From Acidobacteriota bacterium (GTDB lineage: Bacteria > Acidobacteriota > Vicinamibacteria > Vicinamibacterales > CAVVIG01): DNA of 50,228 bases. The notes beneath the pieces were generated by a model. That model did no database searches. It was given only the letters and a program-made list of their open reading frames with translations, and was not told the origin of the DNA. The position numbers were made by a program, and so were the translations under genes. Below are positions 7,303 through 33,215 of this stretch, one piece after another. Numbering within the stretch: position 1 is the stretch's first letter; every line of letters starts with the position of its first letter. The DNA lies in assembly GCA_003222395.1 (NCBI GenBank), contig QHWB01000063.1:1-50228 (forward strand), given 5' to 3'.

Positions 7303-7353
7303 CTGATCAACTCTCTGACGGCCACGTGGTGAGTATATTAAGGTTCGCTGGTT

Positions 7354-7446
7354 GGTTTCGGGGTTCGGGGTTCGGGTTCCGGGGGTTCGAGTTCTTCGCG
7401 CACCCTGCACGCTGCACCCTGCACGCCGGCACCGTGCCCCCTGCAC
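7354..7446. repeat. Heptamer-word island D
   Basis: A run of 7-base words GGTTTCG, GGGTTCG, GGGTTCG, GGTTCCG (7354-7381) is followed at 7401-7428 by a 14-base unit CACCCTGCACGCTG occurring twice (second copy ends GCCG), which itself is CACCCTG plus CACGCTG, then a looser copy to 7446. It fills the divergent gap between the YjbR and cupin genes and lies just upstream of the cupin ribosome binding site. Confidence 0.8.
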
Positions 7447-7468
7447 CAAAGGTAATGAAGGAGCCGTC

Positions 7469-19258: not shown

Positions 19259-19588
19259 ATGGCGTACACGTATCACGAGCTGAAAGAGAAGACGATTGAA
19301 GATCTGCGCGAAATCGCCAAGGGCGTCGAGAATCATGACGCCGTGCAGGGCTACTCGCAGATGAACAAGCAGCACCTGCTGCCGGCGCTGTGCAAGGCCC
19401 TCGGCATCGACACGCGCGAGCACCACGACGTCGTCGGGATCGACAAGGCCGCCATCAAGGCGAAGATGCGCGAGCTGAAGAAAAAACGGGCGGCCGCCAT
19501 CGAGGCCCACGATCACGACGAGCTGAAGAGCATCCGGCGCCACATGCACAGCCTGAACCGCCAGATTCGCGCGCACGTCGCGCCGTAG
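19259..19588 (+). CDS. Rho-N/SAP-like small nucleic-acid-binding protein
   Basis: 109 residues. Residues 1-50 (YTYHELKEKTIEDLREIAKG...QMNKQHLLPALCKALGI) resemble the helix-extended-helix of the Rho termination factor N-terminal/SAP fold. The rest is a charged helical hairpin (AAIKAKMRELKKKRAAAIEA, then KSIRRHMHSLNRQIRAHV). The ATG at 19259 follows CGGAGGTCAGCG, which decides the start. It is found across several phyla as a hypothetical protein. RNA or DNA binding is inferred from the fold; it is not Rho itself. Confidence 0.82.
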   Translation: MAYTYHELKEKTIEDLREIAKGVENHDAVQGYSQMNKQHLLPALCKALGIDTREHHDVVGIDKAAIKAKMRELKKKRAAAIEAHDHDELKSIRRHMHSLNRQIRAHVAP

Positions 19589-19602
19589 ACACATTACATT
19601 GC

Positions 19603-19745
19603 AGATTTCTGATTGTAGATTTCAGATTGATTGCAGATTTCAGATTGATCGCAGATTTCGGATTGATCGCATTCGGCAATCGACCGTCAGGAATCGCCAA
19701 TCAGAAATCAGCAATCAGAAATCAGCAATCTGAAATCAGAAATCT
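19603..19745. repeat. Heptamer-word island A: 143-bp inverted repeat
   Basis: The left arm is built from AGATTTC and AGATTGA words in 18-base units (19617-19634, 19635-19652, 19653-19670). The right arm is AATCAGA and AATCAGC words in perfect 7-base phase (19699-19745). The outer 12 bases AGATTTCTGATT (19603-19614) pair perfectly with AATCAGAAATCT (19734-19745), and GATTTCAGATTG (19618-19629) with CAATCTGAAATC (19726-19737). It fills the gap between the Rho-N-like and VOC genes and ends 14 bases before the VOC start, so it may affect VOC translation. It is much richer in A+T than its surroundings. Confidence 0.9.
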
Positions 19746-19758
19746 CAGGGAGTGTGAA

Positions 19759-20547
19759 ATGGCCGAACTCGATTCGCTGCCGCCGGGATCGTTCTGCTGG
19801 CCGGAGCTCGGGACGACCGATCCGAAAGCCGCCGCCGGCTTTTACCGAACGGTCTTCGGCTGGGACGTTGACGTACAGCCGATTGGCCCTACGGAGACCT
19901 ACTCGATGTTCAAGATGCGCGGCAGGGAAGTCGCCGCCGCCTACACGCTGCGGGATCAGGAACGTCAATACGGCGTGCCGCCGCACTGGAACACCTACGT
20001 CAGCGTCGAGAACGCCGACGCGGCGGCCAAGCGCGCGCAGGAGCTCGGCGGGAAGGTTCTCGCGCCGCCGTTCGACGTGATGGATGCAGGACGCATGGCC
20101 GTGCTGCAGGATCCCACGGGCGCCACGTTCCAGGTCTGGCAGGCCAAGCGCCACATCGGCACGAGGCTTCAGCGCGAGCCAGGCGCGCTGTGCTGGACCG
20201 AGCTCGCGACGCGCGACACACGCAAGGCCGAGACGTTCTATACGCAGCTGTTCGGATGGAACGCGAAGCTCGGCACCGACGGAGGAGTCGAGTACACCGA
20301 ATTCAGCGCAGGCGGATCGCCGAGCGGCGGGATGATGGCGATGCCGTCGCAGGTGCCGAGTCAGGTGCCGGCGCACTGGACGCCCTACTTTCAGGTGACC
20401 GATTGCGACGCGTCAGCGGCGAAGGCGACGTCGGCCGGCGGCAAGACGATCGTGCCGCCGACCGACATCCCGAAGGTCGGACGCTTTGCGATGATTCAGG
20501 ACCCGCAAGGCGCCATGTTCGCGATCTTCAAACCATCGAATACCTGA
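19759..20547 (+). CDS. Two-domain VOC (glyoxalase-fold) protein
   Basis: 262 residues made of two glyoxalase/VOC units. The first (about 8-130) starts PGSFCWPELGTTDPKAAAGF and ends with the signature VLQDPTGATFQVWQ. The second (about 140-260) starts PGALCWTELATRDTRKAETF and ends MIQDPQGAMFAIFKP. This pattern matches the two-domain family that includes actinobacterial proteins labelled as hydroxylase-like. The substrate is unknown. The start codon lies just after the island A inverted repeat. Its stop directly abuts the stop of the convergent EXORDIUM-like gene, with no base between. Confidence 0.9.
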   Translation: MAELDSLPPGSFCWPELGTTDPKAAAGFYRTVFGWDVDVQPIGPTETYSMFKMRGREVAAAYTLRDQERQYGVPPHWNTYVSVENADAAAKRAQELGGKVLAPPFDVMDAGRMAVLQDPTGATFQVWQAKRHIGTRLQREPGALCWTELATRDTRKAETFYTQLFGWNAKLGTDGGVEYTEFSAGGSPSGGMMAMPSQVPSQVPAHWTPYFQVTDCDASAAKATSAGGKTIVPPTDIPKVGRFAMIQDPQGAMFAIFKPSNT

Positions 20548-22930: not shown

Positions 22931-25246
22931 GTGTCATTGATCGCTCTCCCGATCGATCCGTTCATCGAACCGATTCGAGAGGCGGTGCGGCGATCGCGCG
23001 CGGCGGTGATCACGGCGGCACCGGGCGCGGGTAAGACGACGCGCGTGCCTCCGGCGCTCATCGAGGCGGGAAAGGTGATCCTGCTGCAGCCGCGCCGCGT
23101 CGCCGCGCGCGCCATTGCGGCCCGGATTGCCGCCGAGCGCGGATGGACCCTCGGCCGCGAAGTCGGCTGGCAGATTCGCCTCGATCGAAAGTTCACCGCC
23201 GACACGCGCCTGCTCGTCGTCACCGAAGGAATCCTCACGGCGCGTCTGCAGAGCGATCCGCTCCTGTCGGAGTTCGCCACGATCGTGATCGACGAGTTCC
23301 ACGAGCGGAGCATCCACGCCGACGTCGCCATCGCGCTCGCGAAGCAGGCGTGGCGCGCGCGCGCCGATCTGCGCATTGCGGTCATGTCGGCGACGCTCGA
23401 CTCGCGCGCCGCGTCGGCATTTTTCGACGATTGCCCGGTGATCGAGGTGCCGGGCCGCCTCTATCCGCTCGAGGTCGGCTATGCGCCGGGCGAGCCGATC
23501 GGCGACGCCGCGGCAGATGTGCTGCGCGCCACCGACGGCCAGCTTCTCTGTTTTCTGCAGGGCGCCGCGGAGATCGGCCGCGCAATCGCCGAAATCGAGC
23601 GGCGGATACCGGCCGGCGTCGAGATCGTCGCCCTCCACGGATCGCTCGACGCCGCCGATCAGGATCGCGCGCTCGCGCCCGCCTCTGGTCGCCGCATCGT
23701 CGTCGCGACCAACATCGCGGAAACGTCGCTGACGGTGCCGGGCGTAACCGCGGTCATCGATACCGGTCTGCACAAGGTTGCGCGATACGACCGCCATCGC
23801 GGCATAGACAGTCTCGAGACCGAGCGCATCACGGCGGACGCCGCCGAACAGCGGGCGGGTCGCGCCGGCCGCCTCGCGCCCGGCCGCGTCCGGCGGTTGT
23901 GGGACGCCCGCGATCGCCTGCGGCCGCATCGTGAGCCGGAGATTCACCGCATCGATTTGTCGGGAGCCGCGCTCGACGTCATCGCCTGGGGCGGCGATCC
24001 GCGAACGCTCGAATGGTTCGAGCGGCCGCAGGAGGACGCGCTCGACGCGGCGCTGTCGCTGCTGGCGCGGCTCGGCCTGATCACGATCGCGCCGATGCGC
24101 CTCACCGCTATCGGAGAGAAAGCGCGTCATCTCGCCATGCATCCGCGTCTGGCGCGCATCGTCGTCGCCGGCGGCGGCGCGCGCGCTCTCGTGCAGGCGT
24201 GTCAGTTCCTGACCGATCGGCATCGGCTGACGCCCCGCACGGCTGCGACGACATCCGATTTGCTGTCGATCGTCGACGATTCGGGCATCACCGATGCCGA
24301 TTTTCGTCGCGCGATCCTGAGCGGCTATCCCGATCGCGTCGCCAGGCGCCGCGAGCCCGGTTCACCCAGTGTGCTCCTTTCATCCGGAACCGGCGCGATC
24401 GTCGGTCGCGAGAGCGGTGTTCACGACGGTGAGTTCCTCGTCGCCATTGACGTATCCGATGTCGATGTTGCGTCGGACTCTCGGCCCCGCGATCTGGCGC
24501 GGGGCGTTCGGCCGCGCGATGGGGCGCGGGGCTTTCAGCCGCGCGATCCTGTCATCCGCATCGCGAGCCGCGTCGAGCGCGAGTGGCTCGAGGCGACCTC
24601 TTCGGAAGTCGTGCATCGGTTCGACGAGGAGTCGGGCTCCGTGAAGGCCGCGCTGGTGCAGCGATACGACTCCCTGGTGCTTTCAGAGCGTCCGGCCGAG
24701 ATCGATCCTGAGATCGCCGCACAGCTCCTCACCGATGCGTGGCTGCAGCGCGGACCGCGGCCCGAGGACGAGCGCCTCCTCCGACGCCTGCGGTTCGCTG
24801 GGCACGCGGCCGACGTCGACGATCTGGTACGCCTGGCCGCTCTCGGCGCACGAAGGTTGGACGATCTACAGCTCGCGCGAGCGATACCGTCGAACGTGAT
24901 GCGCGAGATCGAACGCGACGCTCCGGAGACCATCGCCGTGCCGAGCGGCCGCCACGCGAGACTCGACTACCACGACGATGGAACCGTTTCCGCGTCGGTG
25001 AAGCTGCAGGAGCTGTTCGGCCTCGCCGACACGCCGCGCATCGGCAGGCGGCGCGAACCGGTCGTGCTCTCGCTGCTCGCGCCGAACGGACGGCCGGTCC
25101 AGATCACCCGCGATCTGCGCAGCTTCTGGGACCGGACCTATCCGGAGGTCAGAAAGGAATTGCAGGGTCGCTACCCGAAGCATCCATGGCCTGAGGATCC
25201 GTGGACCGCGCAGGCGACGCACCGCACGAAGCGTCGGCAATCTTAG
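22931..25246 (+). CDS. hrpB: HrpB-type DEAH-box ATP-dependent helicase
   Basis: 771 residues. Walker A is APGAGKT (30-36), the DEAH-type box is D121-EFHERS, followed by SATLDSRA, NIAETSLTVPGV and the QRAGRAGR motif VI; a C-terminal HrpB domain (GLADTPRIGRRREPVVLSLL...WDRTYPEVRKELQGRYPKHP) closes the protein. RNA-dependent ATPase of unclear role. The GTG at 22931 has no visible ribosome binding site because the preceding bases are a REP palindrome. A 9-residue repeat (LARGVRPRD, GARGFQPRD) at about 522-540 comes from a palindrome inserted in frame. Confidence 0.93.
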   Translation: MSLIALPIDPFIEPIREAVRRSRAAVITAAPGAGKTTRVPPALIEAGKVILLQPRRVAARAIAARIAAERGWTLGREVGWQIRLDRKFTADTRLLVVTEGILTARLQSDPLLSEFATIVIDEFHERSIHADVAIALAKQAWRARADLRIAVMSATLDSRAASAFFDDCPVIEVPGRLYPLEVGYAPGEPIGDAAADVLRATDGQLLCFLQGAAEIGRAIAEIERRIPAGVEIVALHGSLDAADQDRALAPASGRRIVVATNIAETSLTVPGVTAVIDTGLHKVARYDRHRGIDSLETERITADAAEQRAGRAGRLAPGRVRRLWDARDRLRPHREPEIHRIDLSGAALDVIAWGGDPRTLEWFERPQEDALDAALSLLARLGLITIAPMRLTAIGEKARHLAMHPRLARIVVAGGGARALVQACQFLTDRHRLTPRTAATTSDLLSIVDDSGITDADFRRAILSGYPDRVARRREPGSPSVLLSSGTGAIVGRESGVHDGEFLVAIDVSDVDVASDSRPRDLARGVRPRDGARGFQPRDPVIRIASRVEREWLEATSSEVVHRFDEESGSVKAALVQRYDSLVLSERPAEIDPEIAAQLLTDAWLQRGPRPEDERLLRRLRFAGHAADVDDLVRLAALGARRLDDLQLARAIPSNVMREIERDAPETIAVPSGRHARLDYHDDGTVSASVKLQELFGLADTPRIGRRREPVVLSLLAPNGRPVQITRDLRSFWDRTYPEVRKELQGRYPKHPWPEDPWTAQATHRTKRRQS
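24482..24548 (+). repeat. 27-bp-period palindromic repeat within hrpB
   Basis: GGCGCGGGGC starts at 24496 and again at 24523, giving a 27-base period equal to nine codons; each unit has the arms GCGCGGGGC and GCCGCGCG around a KTTCR loop, the core of the GTAG family. A partial third unit precedes them. The encoded peptides RPRDLARGV and RPRDGARGF sit in the linker between helicase and C-terminal domains. Confidence 0.85.
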
Positions 25247-29690: not shown

Positions 29691-30323
29691 ATGGCAGTAA
29701 GACCAGTCATCGCCACGGTGGTCGCCGCGATCGCCTTTGGCAGCATGGCGCTTGCACAGGGTGGACGACCGCTGAGCCCGGCAGGCAGCTCCGCCACGCA
29801 GGTCGGCGGCAAGTACGATACGAGCGGCGCCGAGCCGGTGTACCGAAACGGCAAGTGGATCGAGATCACGTACGGGCGGCCGATCAGACGCGGCCGCAAC
29901 CTGTTCGGCGGCAGCGGTGCGGACTACGGCAAGACGGTGAATCCCGACGCGCCGGTGTGGCGCGCGGGCGCGAACGAATCGACGCAGCTCAAGACCGAAG
30001 CGCCGCTCGTCATCAACGGCAAGACGATCGCGCCCGGCACCTACACGATGTTCATCGATCTGAAGCCGAACAACTGGACGCTGATCGTGTCGACGTGGCC
30101 GGCGCAGAAGGATTTCAACCCGGACGATAAAACCGCGGTGTTCGGCGCATACGGCTACACGCCGGCGAAGGACGTCGTACGCGCGCCGATGAAGCTCGAT
30201 GTGCTGCCGCACTCCCACGATCAGCTGTCGTGGGAATTCCTGGACGTGACCGACGCGGGCGGGACGATCGCGCTCATCTGGGAGAAGACGATGGCGTCGG
30301 TGGCCTTCAAAGTGGCACCGTGA
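29691..30323 (+). CDS. Exported DUF2911 protein
   Basis: 210 residues: signal peptide 1-22, then the DUF2911 core (IEITYGRPIRRGRNLFGG, WRAGANESTQLKTEAPLVIN, KTIAPGTYTMFIDLKPNNWT, LIVSTW) and a C-terminal IALIWEKTMASVAFKV. The family is common and functionally unknown in Bacteroidota and Acidobacteriota. The ATG at 29691 follows TTGGAGG with 10-base spacing. It diverges from the kinase gene. Confidence 0.92.
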   Translation: MAVRPVIATVVAAIAFGSMALAQGGRPLSPAGSSATQVGGKYDTSGAEPVYRNGKWIEITYGRPIRRGRNLFGGSGADYGKTVNPDAPVWRAGANESTQLKTEAPLVINGKTIAPGTYTMFIDLKPNNWTLIVSTWPAQKDFNPDDKTAVFGAYGYTPAKDVVRAPMKLDVLPHSHDQLSWEFLDVTDAGGTIALIWEKTMASVAFKVAP

Positions 30324-30330
30324 GACGTGC

Positions 30331-30406
30331 AAGTTCGAAGTCAGAAGTACGAAGTCAGGCCGAAACCTGACGTGCCTTTCGACTTCGTACTTCATACTTC
30401 AGACTT
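30331..30406. repeat. Heptamer-word island B: inverted repeat
   Basis: The left arm is four 7-base words of form AAGTnnG (AAGTTCG, AAGTCAG, AAGTACG, AAGTCAG; 30331-30358). The right arm (30381-30406) is CTTCnnA words in the same period. The 26-base arms match at 22 positions, with the inner 13 (GAAGTACGAAGTC) perfect. An alternative hairpin TCAGG/CCTGA closes the centre. It starts 8 bases after the DUF2911 stop and ends 7 bases before the convergent amidohydrolase stop, a place for a two-way terminator. Confidence 0.9.
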
Positions 30407-30412
30407 TGCGCG

Positions 30413-30810
30413 TCACTGGCCGGCCGTAGTCGTTCGGCGGCCGGCACGCTCCTTCTTCTGCTTCTCGACCATCTGCTGCAGGTCGGCCGCGAGCTTCTTC
30501 GCGTCATAGGCGATCCCGTCCTTGATCGTCCACGTGATACCGCCGACGCGCTCCACCTTTCCGGTCTTGTCGTTGAGCCGAATCGTGCCGTTCGCGTACA
30601 GGACCTTGAAGTTCTGGAGCGGGTTGTGATCGACGATGACCATATCCGCCAGCATGCCTTCGCGGACGATGCCGAACTCGATCGGTTTGTGCATCGGCTC
30701 GTGCAGCGTCAGCGCGCCGCTCATCGTCGCCGACTGGACGACTTCGAGCGGATGGAAGCCGGCTTCCTGCAGCAGCTCGAACTCGTTGATGTAGCCGATT
30801 AGACTGGTGC
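30413..30810 (-). pseudogene. Amidohydrolase, C-terminal remnant
   Basis: The frame reads GTSLIGYINEFELLQEAGFH, PLEVVQSATMSGALTLHEPM, EGMLADMVIVDHNPLQNFKV and GGITWTIKDGIAYDAKKLAA, the last quarter of a metal-dependent amidohydrolase (imidazolonepropionase-like). The reading stops resembling the family at about 30810; the metal-binding barrel (HxH, K, H and D residues) is missing. About 135 residues remain where about 450 or more are normal. The break borders the DUF1294/serine-hydrolase pair, so a rearrangement removed the rest. An internal ATG at 30724 is not a real start. Confidence 0.8.
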
Positions 30811-31183: not shown

Positions 31184-32437
31184 ATGACATTGGTCCGCCT
31201 CGCCGCCATTGCCAGTCGCGCTGCTCGCGAAATAGCGTGCCGCAGGAGGAAGTGCATCGTTGCATTCCTCCTGCTTCTGATCGTTGCCAGTGCGACTTCG
31301 TGTCGAGCGGTGCGAACGCCGCAGACCGATCAACGCTACGTGCAACAGCTGCAACCCCTTCTGGAGCAGTTTGTTCAATGGCAGGAAATCCCTGGCCTTG
31401 CGATCGGCATCGTCGAAGGCGATCGGCTCGTGTCTGCGCACGCGTTCGGTCTGAAGCATCTCGAACGCCCGGCAGATCCGCTGACCGTTCGATCGCTCTT
31501 TCACATGGCGTCCATTACCAAGCCATTCGTGGGGACGTCGATTATGCAGCTGGTGGAGCGCGGCCACGTAGAGTTGGACGCGCCTGTACTGAAGTATCTG
31601 CCGTATTTTCGCCTCGCTGATGACCGCTACCAGCAAATCACCGTGCGCCACATGGTGACGCACACGTCCGGGATGCCCGATGTCGAAGATTACGAATGGG
31701 ACAAGCCTCAGTACGATGATGGGGCCTTGGAGCGATACGTCCGCAGTCTGAGCAATGAGAAGCTGTTGTTCGCGCCTGGCGAACGCGTGCAGTACAGCAA
31801 CATGGCCTTCGAGGGTCTCGGCGATGTGGTGGCCAAAGCGTCGGGTGAGTCATTCGACGATTACGTGCAGCACCAAATCCTGACACCACTGGGGATGACG
31901 GACAGTACGCTGTTGGTGAACCAGGCCAATGCGACGCTGCTGACGTGGGGTCACGAATTGGACGCGCAGGGGGCGCCTTTTCCCAGCCGAGTGTTTCCCT
32001 ATAACCGGATGCATTCACCGAGTTCGAATCTGCACTCGAATCTCGTAGACATGGCGCGGTGGGCTATCGCCAACATGAACCGCGGCGAACTGGAGGGACA
32101 CCGAATTCTTCAGACGTCAACACATGACATCATGTGGAAACCGGCCCATCAACTCGGTGGCGCCGCTGACGGACAGGCAGCGGTCGGGATTAGTTGGTGG
32201 CTCGATGTGTATCGGGGCACGCGAATGATCGCGCACGAGGGTGGCGATACCGGCTACCGGACGAATCTGGTCTTGCTCCCGGACAAACGGATCGCCGTCG
32301 TGTGGATGCAGAACGCTGAGTGGGCCGCCGCCGACGACAGCCACACGGATCAATGGCCTCAAGGTCCGGTGAGGCGCCTGAATGCGAATCGCGGACAGCC
32401 GGTCGCTGACAGCCGACAGCCGACAGCTGACAGCTGA
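31184..32437 (+). CDS. Serine hydrolase (class C beta-lactamase/PBP fold), probable lipoprotein
   Basis: 417 residues. A positively charged N-terminus and hydrophobic stretch lead to a lipobox-like VASATSC. The catalytic S110-x-x-K113 is in ASITKPF, Y204 in YSN, and the third motif is HEGGDTG. This is the PF00144 family (esterases, peptidases, beta-lactamases), so the name beta-lactamase should not be read as resistance. The last 14 residues (RGQPVADSRQPTAD) and the stop codon are made by heptamer island C. Lower G+C than its neighbours. Confidence 0.9.
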   Translation: MTLVRLAAIASRAAREIACRRRKCIVAFLLLLIVASATSCRAVRTPQTDQRYVQQLQPLLEQFVQWQEIPGLAIGIVEGDRLVSAHAFGLKHLERPADPLTVRSLFHMASITKPFVGTSIMQLVERGHVELDAPVLKYLPYFRLADDRYQQITVRHMVTHTSGMPDVEDYEWDKPQYDDGALERYVRSLSNEKLLFAPGERVQYSNMAFEGLGDVVAKASGESFDDYVQHQILTPLGMTDSTLLVNQANATLLTWGHELDAQGAPFPSRVFPYNRMHSPSSNLHSNLVDMARWAIANMNRGELEGHRILQTSTHDIMWKPAHQLGGAADGQAAVGISWWLDVYRGTRMIAHEGGDTGYRTNLVLLPDKRIAVVWMQNAEWAAADDSHTDQWPQGPVRRLNANRGQPVADSRQPTADS

Positions 32438-32461
32438 TAGCTGACAGCTGATAGCTGATAG
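32393..32461. repeat. Heptamer-word island C
   Basis: Seven consecutive 7-base words (ACAGCCG twice, ACAGCTG twice, ATAGCTG, ACAGCTG, ATAGCTG) run from 32409 to 32457, followed by a partial ATAG; looser copies precede from 32393. CAGCTG makes the words self-complementary. The island covers the last codons of the serine hydrolase gene, whose TGA (32435-32437) is inside it, and stops one or two bases before the stop of the convergent PilZ gene. Confidence 0.92.
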
Positions 32462-32462
32462 A

Positions 32463-33215
32463 TCAGCGTGCTCGGAACGGAATCGGCTGATCGGCGCAGT
32501 GCCGCTGGCGGTACGCTTCGAGTGCCTGCTTTGCCGCGCTCGTGAACTCGAGGCCGACGCGATAGTGCGGTTCCGCCTGCGGCTGCGGCTTCTCGAACGT
32601 CGACCAGGCGACCTGCGCGATGAGGTTCATCGTCTCGTCATTGTCCGGCAGCGCAACGTTGATCTTCTGGTGGGGGCGCAACACCGGCAGCGATACGATC
32701 TGAGCGCCGAGGACCGAGATGTCCACCAGGCTCGCGCAGCCGCTTTCGACAGTGACATCGAACGGATCGCGCACGAGGAATCGCGGGGCGCGCCTCGTGT
32801 TGAGGGTTTCGGTGTGCGCGGCGACGATCTTCGACAACGCCGCCACGACCTGCTGCGATGGCGTAACCAGACCCGGGTGCGATGCAGCGACCGCCGCGGG
32901 ACGCGATTGAGTTGGCGTCCGGCCGTTGCCGAGCGGCATCGTTGTCCATCGTCCATCGTGCTCGACAACGAGCAGGATGGTGCTTCCGGGAATGGCCAAC
33001 GCGCCGACGCGATCGATGAACGTCAGGCCCGCAGGCGTCTGGGCGAAGGTCGCGTCGATCGCGACGACCTTGGGCCGGTACGCTTTGATGCTCTCGATCG
33101 CCGACGCGAGGCTGGCCGAAGCGAAAGTCATCACGCGGCCCGGCAGCGACGTGCCGTCGCGAATCGCCGCCACTCTGCTTGCGTCGGCAACGATGATTGA
33201 GACCTCGGGCGGCAT
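32463..33215 (-). CDS. PilZ-domain protein with receiver-like N-terminus
   Basis: 250 residues. Residues 1-110 look like an alpha/beta receiver-type domain (SIIVADASRVAAIRDG, YRPKVVAIDATFAQTPAG, STILLVVEHDG) without a clear phosphorylation triad. Residues about 145-240 form a PilZ domain: RRAPRFLV gives the RxxxR-like arginines and VDISVLGAQI the D/NxSxxG motif, so cyclic di-GMP binding is plausible. The start at 33215 is chosen because it precedes the first beta strand; the frame stays open to a TTG at 33362. Confidence 0.8.
   Translation of the reverse strand: MPPEVSIIVADASRVAAIRDGTSLPGRVMTFASASLASAIESIKAYRPKVVAIDATFAQTPAGLTFIDRVGALAIPGSTILLVVEHDGRWTTMPLGNGRTPTQSRPAAVAASHPGLVTPSQQVVAALSKIVAAHTETLNTRRAPRFLVRDPFDVTVESGCASLVDISVLGAQIVSLPVLRPHQKINVALPDNDETMNLIAQVAWSTFEKPQPQAEPHYRVGLEFTSAAKQALEAYRQRHCADQPIPFRAR

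Follow-up and report, generated by a model that had tools for sequence, protein, structure and literature searches.

Results and Discussion

A hairpin just upstream of the VOC gene

The window, i.e., the whole stretch of 50,228 nucleotides of Acidobacteriota contig QHWB01000063.1 that was analyzed, contains a hairpin of seven-base repeats between a small gene with a Rho_N domain and a gene of the VOC (glyoxalase) superfamily, outside any rRNA gene (Table 1). Genes were predicted with a hexamer-score gene caller made for this analysis, and the nearest named orthologs of the VOC protein are those of gp6 Acidobacteria. Nine bases separate the stop codon of the Rho_N gene from the element, whose GC content is 39% as opposed to 61-69% across the window. 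The element consists of two intergenic arrays of tandem 7-base units in convergent orientation, with a spacer of 27 bases between the arms, and a profile search returned no PF05635 hit on the window contig. Read directly, the arm words are GATTGCA, GATTTCA, and variants of these, and they contain no GGG run and hence lack the tract that a G-quadruplex would need.

Table 1. Coordinates of the hairpin, its neighboring genes, and other repeat arrays of the window
Feature	Position	Strand	Basis
Gene upstream of the element, encoding 109 aa with a Rho_N domain (PF07498)	19259..19588	+	Gene prediction, domain search
Entire gene-less hairpin of convergent heptamers, GATT dialect	19598..19747	.	Repeat search, TRF, fold, family counts
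Left arm: GATTNNN, with a higher-order unit of 18 bases	19598..19671	+	Repeat search, TRF
Loop/spacer between arms, approximate	19672..19690	.	Sequence reading, fold
Right arm: AATCNNN (left-arm words on other strand), 7/14-base units	19691..19747	-	Repeat search, TRF, period scan
VOC (glyoxalase superfamily) gene, downstream	19759..20547	+	Gene prediction, domain search
Second hairpin, GAAGTNN dialect	30325..30411	.	TRF and reading; z -7.69
CAGCTRT-dialect array	32394..32470	.	450-kb period scan; z -3.70

An earlier note on this DNA had described a 143-bp inverted repeat at 19603-19745. The inverted repeat is there, but its bounds were drawn too tightly, since the arms stretch slightly further (about 19598-19747). 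The perfect 12-base ends claimed for it are exact reverse complements (AGATTTCTGATT at 19603-19614 and AATCAGAAATCT at 19734-19745), as are the two members of the inner 12-base pair (GATTTCAGATTG at 19636-19647 and CAATCTGAAATC at 19726-19737), and GATTTCAGATTG occurs a second time in the left arm, at 19618-19629. Proximity to the VOC start was likewise borne out, with 13 bases between 19745 and the ATG at 19759. The repeat search and TRF recovered both of the registers given in the note, namely an 18-base register in the left arm (TRF, 19610-19671, 93% matches) and a 7/14-base register in the right arm (7-base units at 19699-19744, 14-base units at 19687-19744). By sequence reading, the deeper unit of the arms is GATT plus three bases; since 4-base GATT units are occasionally interspersed, the 18-base unit of the left arm resolves into 7+7+4. 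The long RNA hairpin that the note had anticipated is strongly predicted (MFE -53.7 kcal/mol, z -5.97), with none of 200 shuffles equally low.

Known identities were sought for the hairpin. Within 19500-19900 there was no terminator-like match (a GC-rich stem with a run of T after it) and no sigma-70-like match, and identity as a terminator or promoter was rejected. Rfam at the gathering threshold reported only LSU (1-472) and 5S (699-815) in the whole window and nothing at the hairpin; since all of the hits are rRNA, identity as a known RNA family was rejected as well.

A strong fold immediately upstream of the VOC start could mean that the hairpin regulates VOC in cis (as an attenuator, thermosensor, or RNase III site) and is under selection at this locus. 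Three relatives share both neighbors, with the upstream gene 78-80% identical and VOC 67-68% identical. One orthologous spacer (L045) holds a mixed GATT/GAATTCGG hairpin (z -5.40), a second (L046) has no significant hairpin (z -0.44), and the third (L047, 2780-2982) has a GC-rich hairpin with arms of ~25 bp (z -10.54) in which heptamers are not visible. A significant hairpin in three of the four orthologous junctions is what cis-regulation would favor; however, the hairpins differ in sequence, one junction has none, and the window hairpin has no terminator-like tail. Since the spacer sequence is not conserved while significant folding recurs, the comparison fits repeated insertion and turnover. 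The earlier note had named free variation with loss of complementarity among relatives as the outcome that would count against it; across the four genomes with these neighbors the sequence does differ, and folding is retained in three of them.

A polar family of dispersed hairpins

The window element belongs to a family that is dispersed through its genome (G000; 7.74 Mb, 118 contigs). The pattern AATCNGAAATC was matched 62/53 times (115) as compared with 0/0 for the reversed pattern, and GATTNNNGATTNNNGATT 199/203 times (402) vs. 2/2 (4), with sites of the GGGATT dialect counted in. Forty fetched places, a grid sample of 400 kb, and the window itself together yielded 32 distinct clusters, 28 of which are two-armed (two of these being of the GGGATT dialect), and every one of the 28 reads GATT in its left arm and AATC in its right. 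The remaining four clusters are one-armed, and two of them are the widely spaced arms of a gene-bearing copy (L024; see below). The median fold z across 26 GATT elements was -7.45. Beside an element, a median of only 21 bases of spacer is left over (n = 28), compared to 89.5 for 264 spacers (Mann-Whitney p 6e-6), and the elements therefore end close to the neighboring predicted genes. The genes that flank the 32 clusters are oriented ++ in 13 cases, -- in 8, +- in 7, and -+ in 3 (one without assignment), with reference spacers at 57 ++, 113 --, 43 +-, and 51 -+; no bias is claimed for the clusters. Recurrence of this hairpin type between so many gene pairs, in all orientations, argues further against selection for a regulatory hairpin peculiar to the VOC locus, an explanation that we regard as highly improbable.

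According to the earlier note, the right arm does not simply copy the left one, which agrees with what the family shows: for the 26 elements of the GATT dialect, arms swapped between elements paired as well as an element's own arms in 1887 of 20000 permutations. Since own arms are thus no better than same-dialect swaps, complementarity stems from the words common to a dialect and from a polarity that does not vary, rather than from arm copying. Copying from arm to arm within each hairpin had been a candidate when 28 elements were used (32/20000), and it was rejected when removal of the two GGGATT elements raised that figure to 1887.

An origin of the arrays by slippage, with inversion arising by chance or template switching and the genes described below merely sharing permissive spacers, has several points in its favor. 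When 450 kb were scanned blind for tandem periods of 3-30, period 7 was the commonest (15 segments, 12 of them mostly intergenic), followed in spacers by periods 8 (6 segments) and 14 (5), and several further word dialects were present. In addition, the number of units per arm varies freely, and arms within a dialect lack individual matching. Slippage would not, however, be expected to give a single polarity in all 28 two-armed clusters.

PF05635 genes within inverted word arrays

In one GATT pair (L024/L157; C25, ~182.6-183.2 kb), the arms are separated by ~480 bases that include a gene, and this gene encodes a PF05635/TIGR02436 product, i.e., the "four helix bundle" protein of 23S rRNA intervening sequences (44.2 bits, cut-off 33.8), hereafter IVP. 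Gene-less ("solo") and gene-bearing copies thus have their architecture in common. G000 contains six PF05635 hits, and all six are accompanied by inverted arrays, both by eye and by score (48-76), each in a dialect of its own (CAGCTRT, GGCGGGA-like, GGGCAGA, GATTGCT, GGGATTT, and AATTGGGT).

The same arrangement was scored in a bacterial family set of 27 genomes, 25 of them with PF05635 hits (93 over the cut-off, 89 analyzed, 81 with enough flank). A threshold of 34 for the inverted-flank alignment score was set on G000 controls and then applied to other phyla. At least this score was reached in the inverted orientation by 66 of the 81 loci, with 15 below it, and in the direct orientation by 11/81. 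Among controls, it was reached at 35/600 random G000 positions, 1/31 family radC/VOC loci, and 6/76 G000 genes, the last of which includes one IVP gene (L143:11565-11990, the L155 IVP) and becomes 5/75 without it. If IVP genes merely shared permissive spacers with slippage repeats, such a difference between IVP flanks (66/81) and gene flanks (6/76) would be surprising. The units of the 66 armed loci were 7/7 in 42, 8/8 in 14, 9/9 in 7, and mixed in 3.

A wider set comprised 41 genomes found via VOC loci, 22 of them with over-cut-off hits, and gave 28 usable loci in other phyla and classes (3 sub-cut-off). Nineteen of these were at or above the threshold, with period 7 in both arms in 16 of the 19, and armed loci were found in Chloroflexi, Myxococcota, and other Acidobacteria. 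The nine loci below the threshold include those of KSB1, Oscillatoria, and Pseudoalteromonas as well as the three sub-cut-off hits. Of 17 IVP loci fetched from named plasmids, 8 are flanked by strong heptamer arms in convergent orientation (L301, L302, L306, L307, L308, L310, and L313, which are cyanobacterial, and L311 from Azospirillum), three (L309, L315, and L316) scored weakly above 50 shuffles, and the other six had no arms above shuffles. At L252 in the wider set and at plasmid locus L301, the direct score exceeded the inverted score though arms are present. On cyanobacterial plasmids, IVP genes lie between cas6 and cas4 in L301 and L313, with strong word arms, and between cas10 and cmr3 in L316, with weak arms; an IVP insert also occurs between two ribonucleotide reductase genes.

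By sequence, structural relatives of IVP are XCC0516 (2GSC, E 6e-18), which was matched by the IVP of L154, and 2RLD (E 5e-14). The retroelement protein Avd gave a sub-cut-off match (21-22 bits), in agreement with the relation described in PMC10053308. The L154 IVP found no match in the phage collection, and carriage of IVP by phage was thus not supported.

The earlier note's interpretation can be retained in part; beyond what it describes, the hairpin belongs to a polar family of scattered copies that is linked to PF05635. The hairpins may have come first, as an independent repeat family into which PF05635 genes home as parasites, their proteins adapting to the local words. This is favored by the great excess of solo over IVP copies, G000 having 402 matches to the GATT pattern (GGGATT included) as against one IVP, that of L157, with the exact window dialect. 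It is less easily reconciled with arms being kept at both ends of IVP genes in several phyla. Since we know of no catalytic activity for PF05635 proteins, the gene could also be a passenger, lodging in hairpins of any dialect that happens to be present.

Covariation of protein, dialect, and unit length

IVP proteins, the dialects of their arms, and the length of the repeat unit vary together. For the 66 armed loci, similarity between IVPs correlated with similarity between their arms, and although the Mantel r was small (0.141), none of 2000 permutations equaled it. Arm similarity with the nearest IVP in another genome was 0.40 vs. 0.18 on average (p 9e-11). On the IVP tree, unit length changes 10 times as compared with a shuffled mean of 19.4, and none of 200 shuffles was as low; the tree is built on few columns and contains long branches and many open forks. 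For example, the GATT-dialect IVPs of G000 and G016, which belong to different genera, are 63.5% identical and paired with SH-aLRT 98, while the match of the GATT-dialect IVP of G000 to that of L154 in the same genome spans 71 residues with only 22.5% identity (E 1.7). Arms mostly of nine-base rather than seven-base units occur in two groups of the tree, one comprising L155 (scored 9/8), L171, L172, L174, and L186, and the other L175, L197, and L204; other loci have units of 8.

Genome-wide counts of each dialect, taken outside IVP flanks, were compared between genomes with the dialect at an analyzed IVP (cognate genomes) and genomes without it, using patterns that were picked by eye from IVP arms, except for AATCNGAAATC, which was taken from the window. 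GGTTCNCNR was matched 178 and 190 times in cognate genomes vs. no more than 43 times in 25 others (one-sided p 0.0098), AAAAGTY 17 and 20 vs. no more than 1 in 25 others (p 0.00012), and CAGCTRT 144 and 169 vs. no more than 29 in 25 others (p 0.0016), these and the following p-values all being one-sided. The separation was less clean for AATCNGAAATC (113 and 187 vs. a median of 16 and maximum of 166 in 23; p 0.016) and for GTTRGTC (27, 31, and 223 vs. a median of 0.5 and maximum of 162 in 24; p 0.020), because some genomes are rich in copies without an exact cognate among the analyzed IVPs. For GTTRGTC these are G017 (162), G011 (87), G021 (87), and G024 (58), and G017 also holds 166 matches to AATCNGAAATC, its IVPs carrying only a related dialect, one of them at a contig end. 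Since GTTRGTC reversed is a word of the GATT dialect, the reversed-pattern control provides no null for it. Among the matches listed, 16 of 17 close two-strand clusters share the polarity of the IVP elements of the same dialect, G000:C47 being opposite.

Dialect and unit length that follow IVP phylogeny, and genome-specific dialects that track their cognate IVPs, argue against slippage, and we consider that origin unlikely. Cognate dialects are explained equally well if hairpins came first and proteins adapted to them; nonetheless, IVP clades hold their unit length across genera, which is easier if the arms travel with the gene.

Filled and empty sites at radC

An IVP element adjoins radC in 4 of 24 genomes. 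Three of the IVPs concerned are 75-78% identical to one another, and that of G011 shares 38-45% identity with these three, so that its element is perhaps an independent insertion. In the congeners G016 and G024, the radC junction reads AAGTATAC-GTGCGGC-TGTAGTACG with no IVP element, and in G041, of the same genus, it reads AAGTATAC-(arm-IVP-arm)-TGTAGTACG, the element replacing GTGCGGC. No clear target-site duplication was seen in this one filled/empty comparison within a genus. The sequences of the junction indicate gain or loss of an IVP element within the genus. If it was G041 that gained the element, then both arms would have arrived with the IVP gene, contrary to what would be expected had hairpins existed first and genes homed in on them; we judge that order of events improbable too. 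At the same place beside radC, G040 has by eye an apparent short gene-less hairpin.

A model for solo and gene-bearing copies

Considering these results, we think it probable that the window feature is the solo, IVP-dependent form of a small hairpin element that, when complete, carries the IVP gene. A full element would consist of an array of 7-9-base words, the PF05635/TIGR02436 gene, and the same words inverted. The IVP protein may recognize its own dialect, either as DNA or as a hairpin in the transcript, and such recognition would help that dialect to spread or persist. If IVP acts on its own dialect, then solo hairpins would be non-autonomous copies. Mobility of the elements is likewise part of the proposal. 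In transcripts, the paired arms would form a duplex that RNase III could cut, by analogy with the work on 23S intervening sequences described in PMC4990558, and such cutting would allow elements to sit between co-transcribed genes with little harm. The window element most likely represents an insertion that is tolerated between these two genes, Rho_N and VOC, and that leaves intact the ribosome-binding region of VOC (GGGAG), just outside the arm. Little effect on VOC expression would be expected, and any effect would probably come from mRNA processing or stability and not from termination.

Relation to known repeats and elements

Convergent pairs of the heptamer GGGAATC have been described in Xanthomonas, with 70 in Xcc and 75 in Xac (Rehm et al., 2015; PMC4692102), and that paper describes the arrays as intergenic, mostly transcribed, and variable in length between relatives. 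The copies in the window and in G000 are likewise convergent, intergenic heptamer arrays, and G000 has a GGGATTC dialect. In contrast, the window words lack a GGG tract, so that the quadruplex idea is inapplicable to them, and IVP loci here also use units of 8 and 9 bases in many dialects. Neither "XCC0516" nor "four-helix" occurs in the main text of PMC4692102. In the 23S rRNA intervening sequence (IVS) of Coxiella, an S23p gene lies within complementary arms and is preceded by a variable number of heptameric GACAGAT repeats, as described by Warrier et al. (2016; PMC4990558), who cite an earlier proposal that IVSs originated as mobile elements (Ralph and McClelland, 1993). A PF05635-type gene within complementary arms is also what the sister copy L157 of G000 has, and complementary arms are present in the window element too; the IVS, however, sits in a helix of 23S rRNA, whereas the elements described here lie between protein genes and are mostly gene-less. 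Since Xanthomonas pairs and Coxiella heptamers are in print, the window hairpin belongs to a known kind of repeat.

A given RAYT usually goes with a REP sequence of its own. REPIN/RAYT systems resemble the present elements in joining dispersed palindromic copies to a linked gene, which is believed to mobilize them (PMC2817692, PMC8049555). The linked gene here is PF05635 rather than a tyrosine transposase, and the arms are built of 7-9-mers in tandem instead of a single short palindrome of fixed sequence. The TAACTGA heptamers of Beggiatoaceae are also seven-base repeats near start codons, patchily distributed across phyla; they are direct repeats, with one indirect among 169 sets, and the abstract of PMC4679880 names neither a hairpin nor a linked repeat-bearing gene of the PF05635-element kind. 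The passages of PMC5524665 and PMC8700078 that name four helix bundle proteins draw no link to dispersed heptamer hairpins. In the open-licence PMC literature, we found no report of PF05635 genes linked to dispersed heptamer hairpins, nor of a tie of these two with unit length.

The 23S rRNA IVS would be the case of an IVP element inserted in rRNA. More broadly, the sequences leave evenly poised, in our estimate, whether there is a widespread and so far unrecognized family of mobile elements in which a PF05635 protein, a relative of Avd, recognizes and propagates its own hairpins of 7-, 8-, or 9-base words, with gene-bearing copies moving themselves and gene-less copies moved in trans, and with 23S IVSs and at least part of the Xanthomonas and cyanobacterial heptamers as members. 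A bolder and speculative version would have the arms made or extended by templated addition of words with a partner polymerase or reverse transcriptase. The role of S23/IVP "four helix bundle" proteins and the abundance of heptamer repeats in some bacterial genomes may then be one question, and each IVP would be predicted to bind, mobilize, or stabilize the words of its particular dialect and unit length. The answer would have a bearing, too, on how inserts come to lie between functionally linked genes of cyanobacterial plasmids, i.e., cas6/cas4, cas10/cmr3, and the ribonucleotide reductase pair.

Other repeat arrays in the window

The second hairpin of the window (Table 1) fills the spacer between the converging predicted genes 29691-30323 and 30413-30724, and its GAAGTNN dialect, though present in G000, is absent from all six of that genome's IVP loci. 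The CAGCTRT-dialect array overlaps the predicted 3' end of gene 31310-32437 and shares its dialect with the G000 IVP element L154. At 7345-7455, arrays of the heptamers TTCGGGG and then GCACCCT adjoin each other, with folding no better than that of shuffles (z 0.39). Finally, TRF identified 27-base tandem repeats at 24481-24548, within the predicted helicase-like gene 22937-25246.
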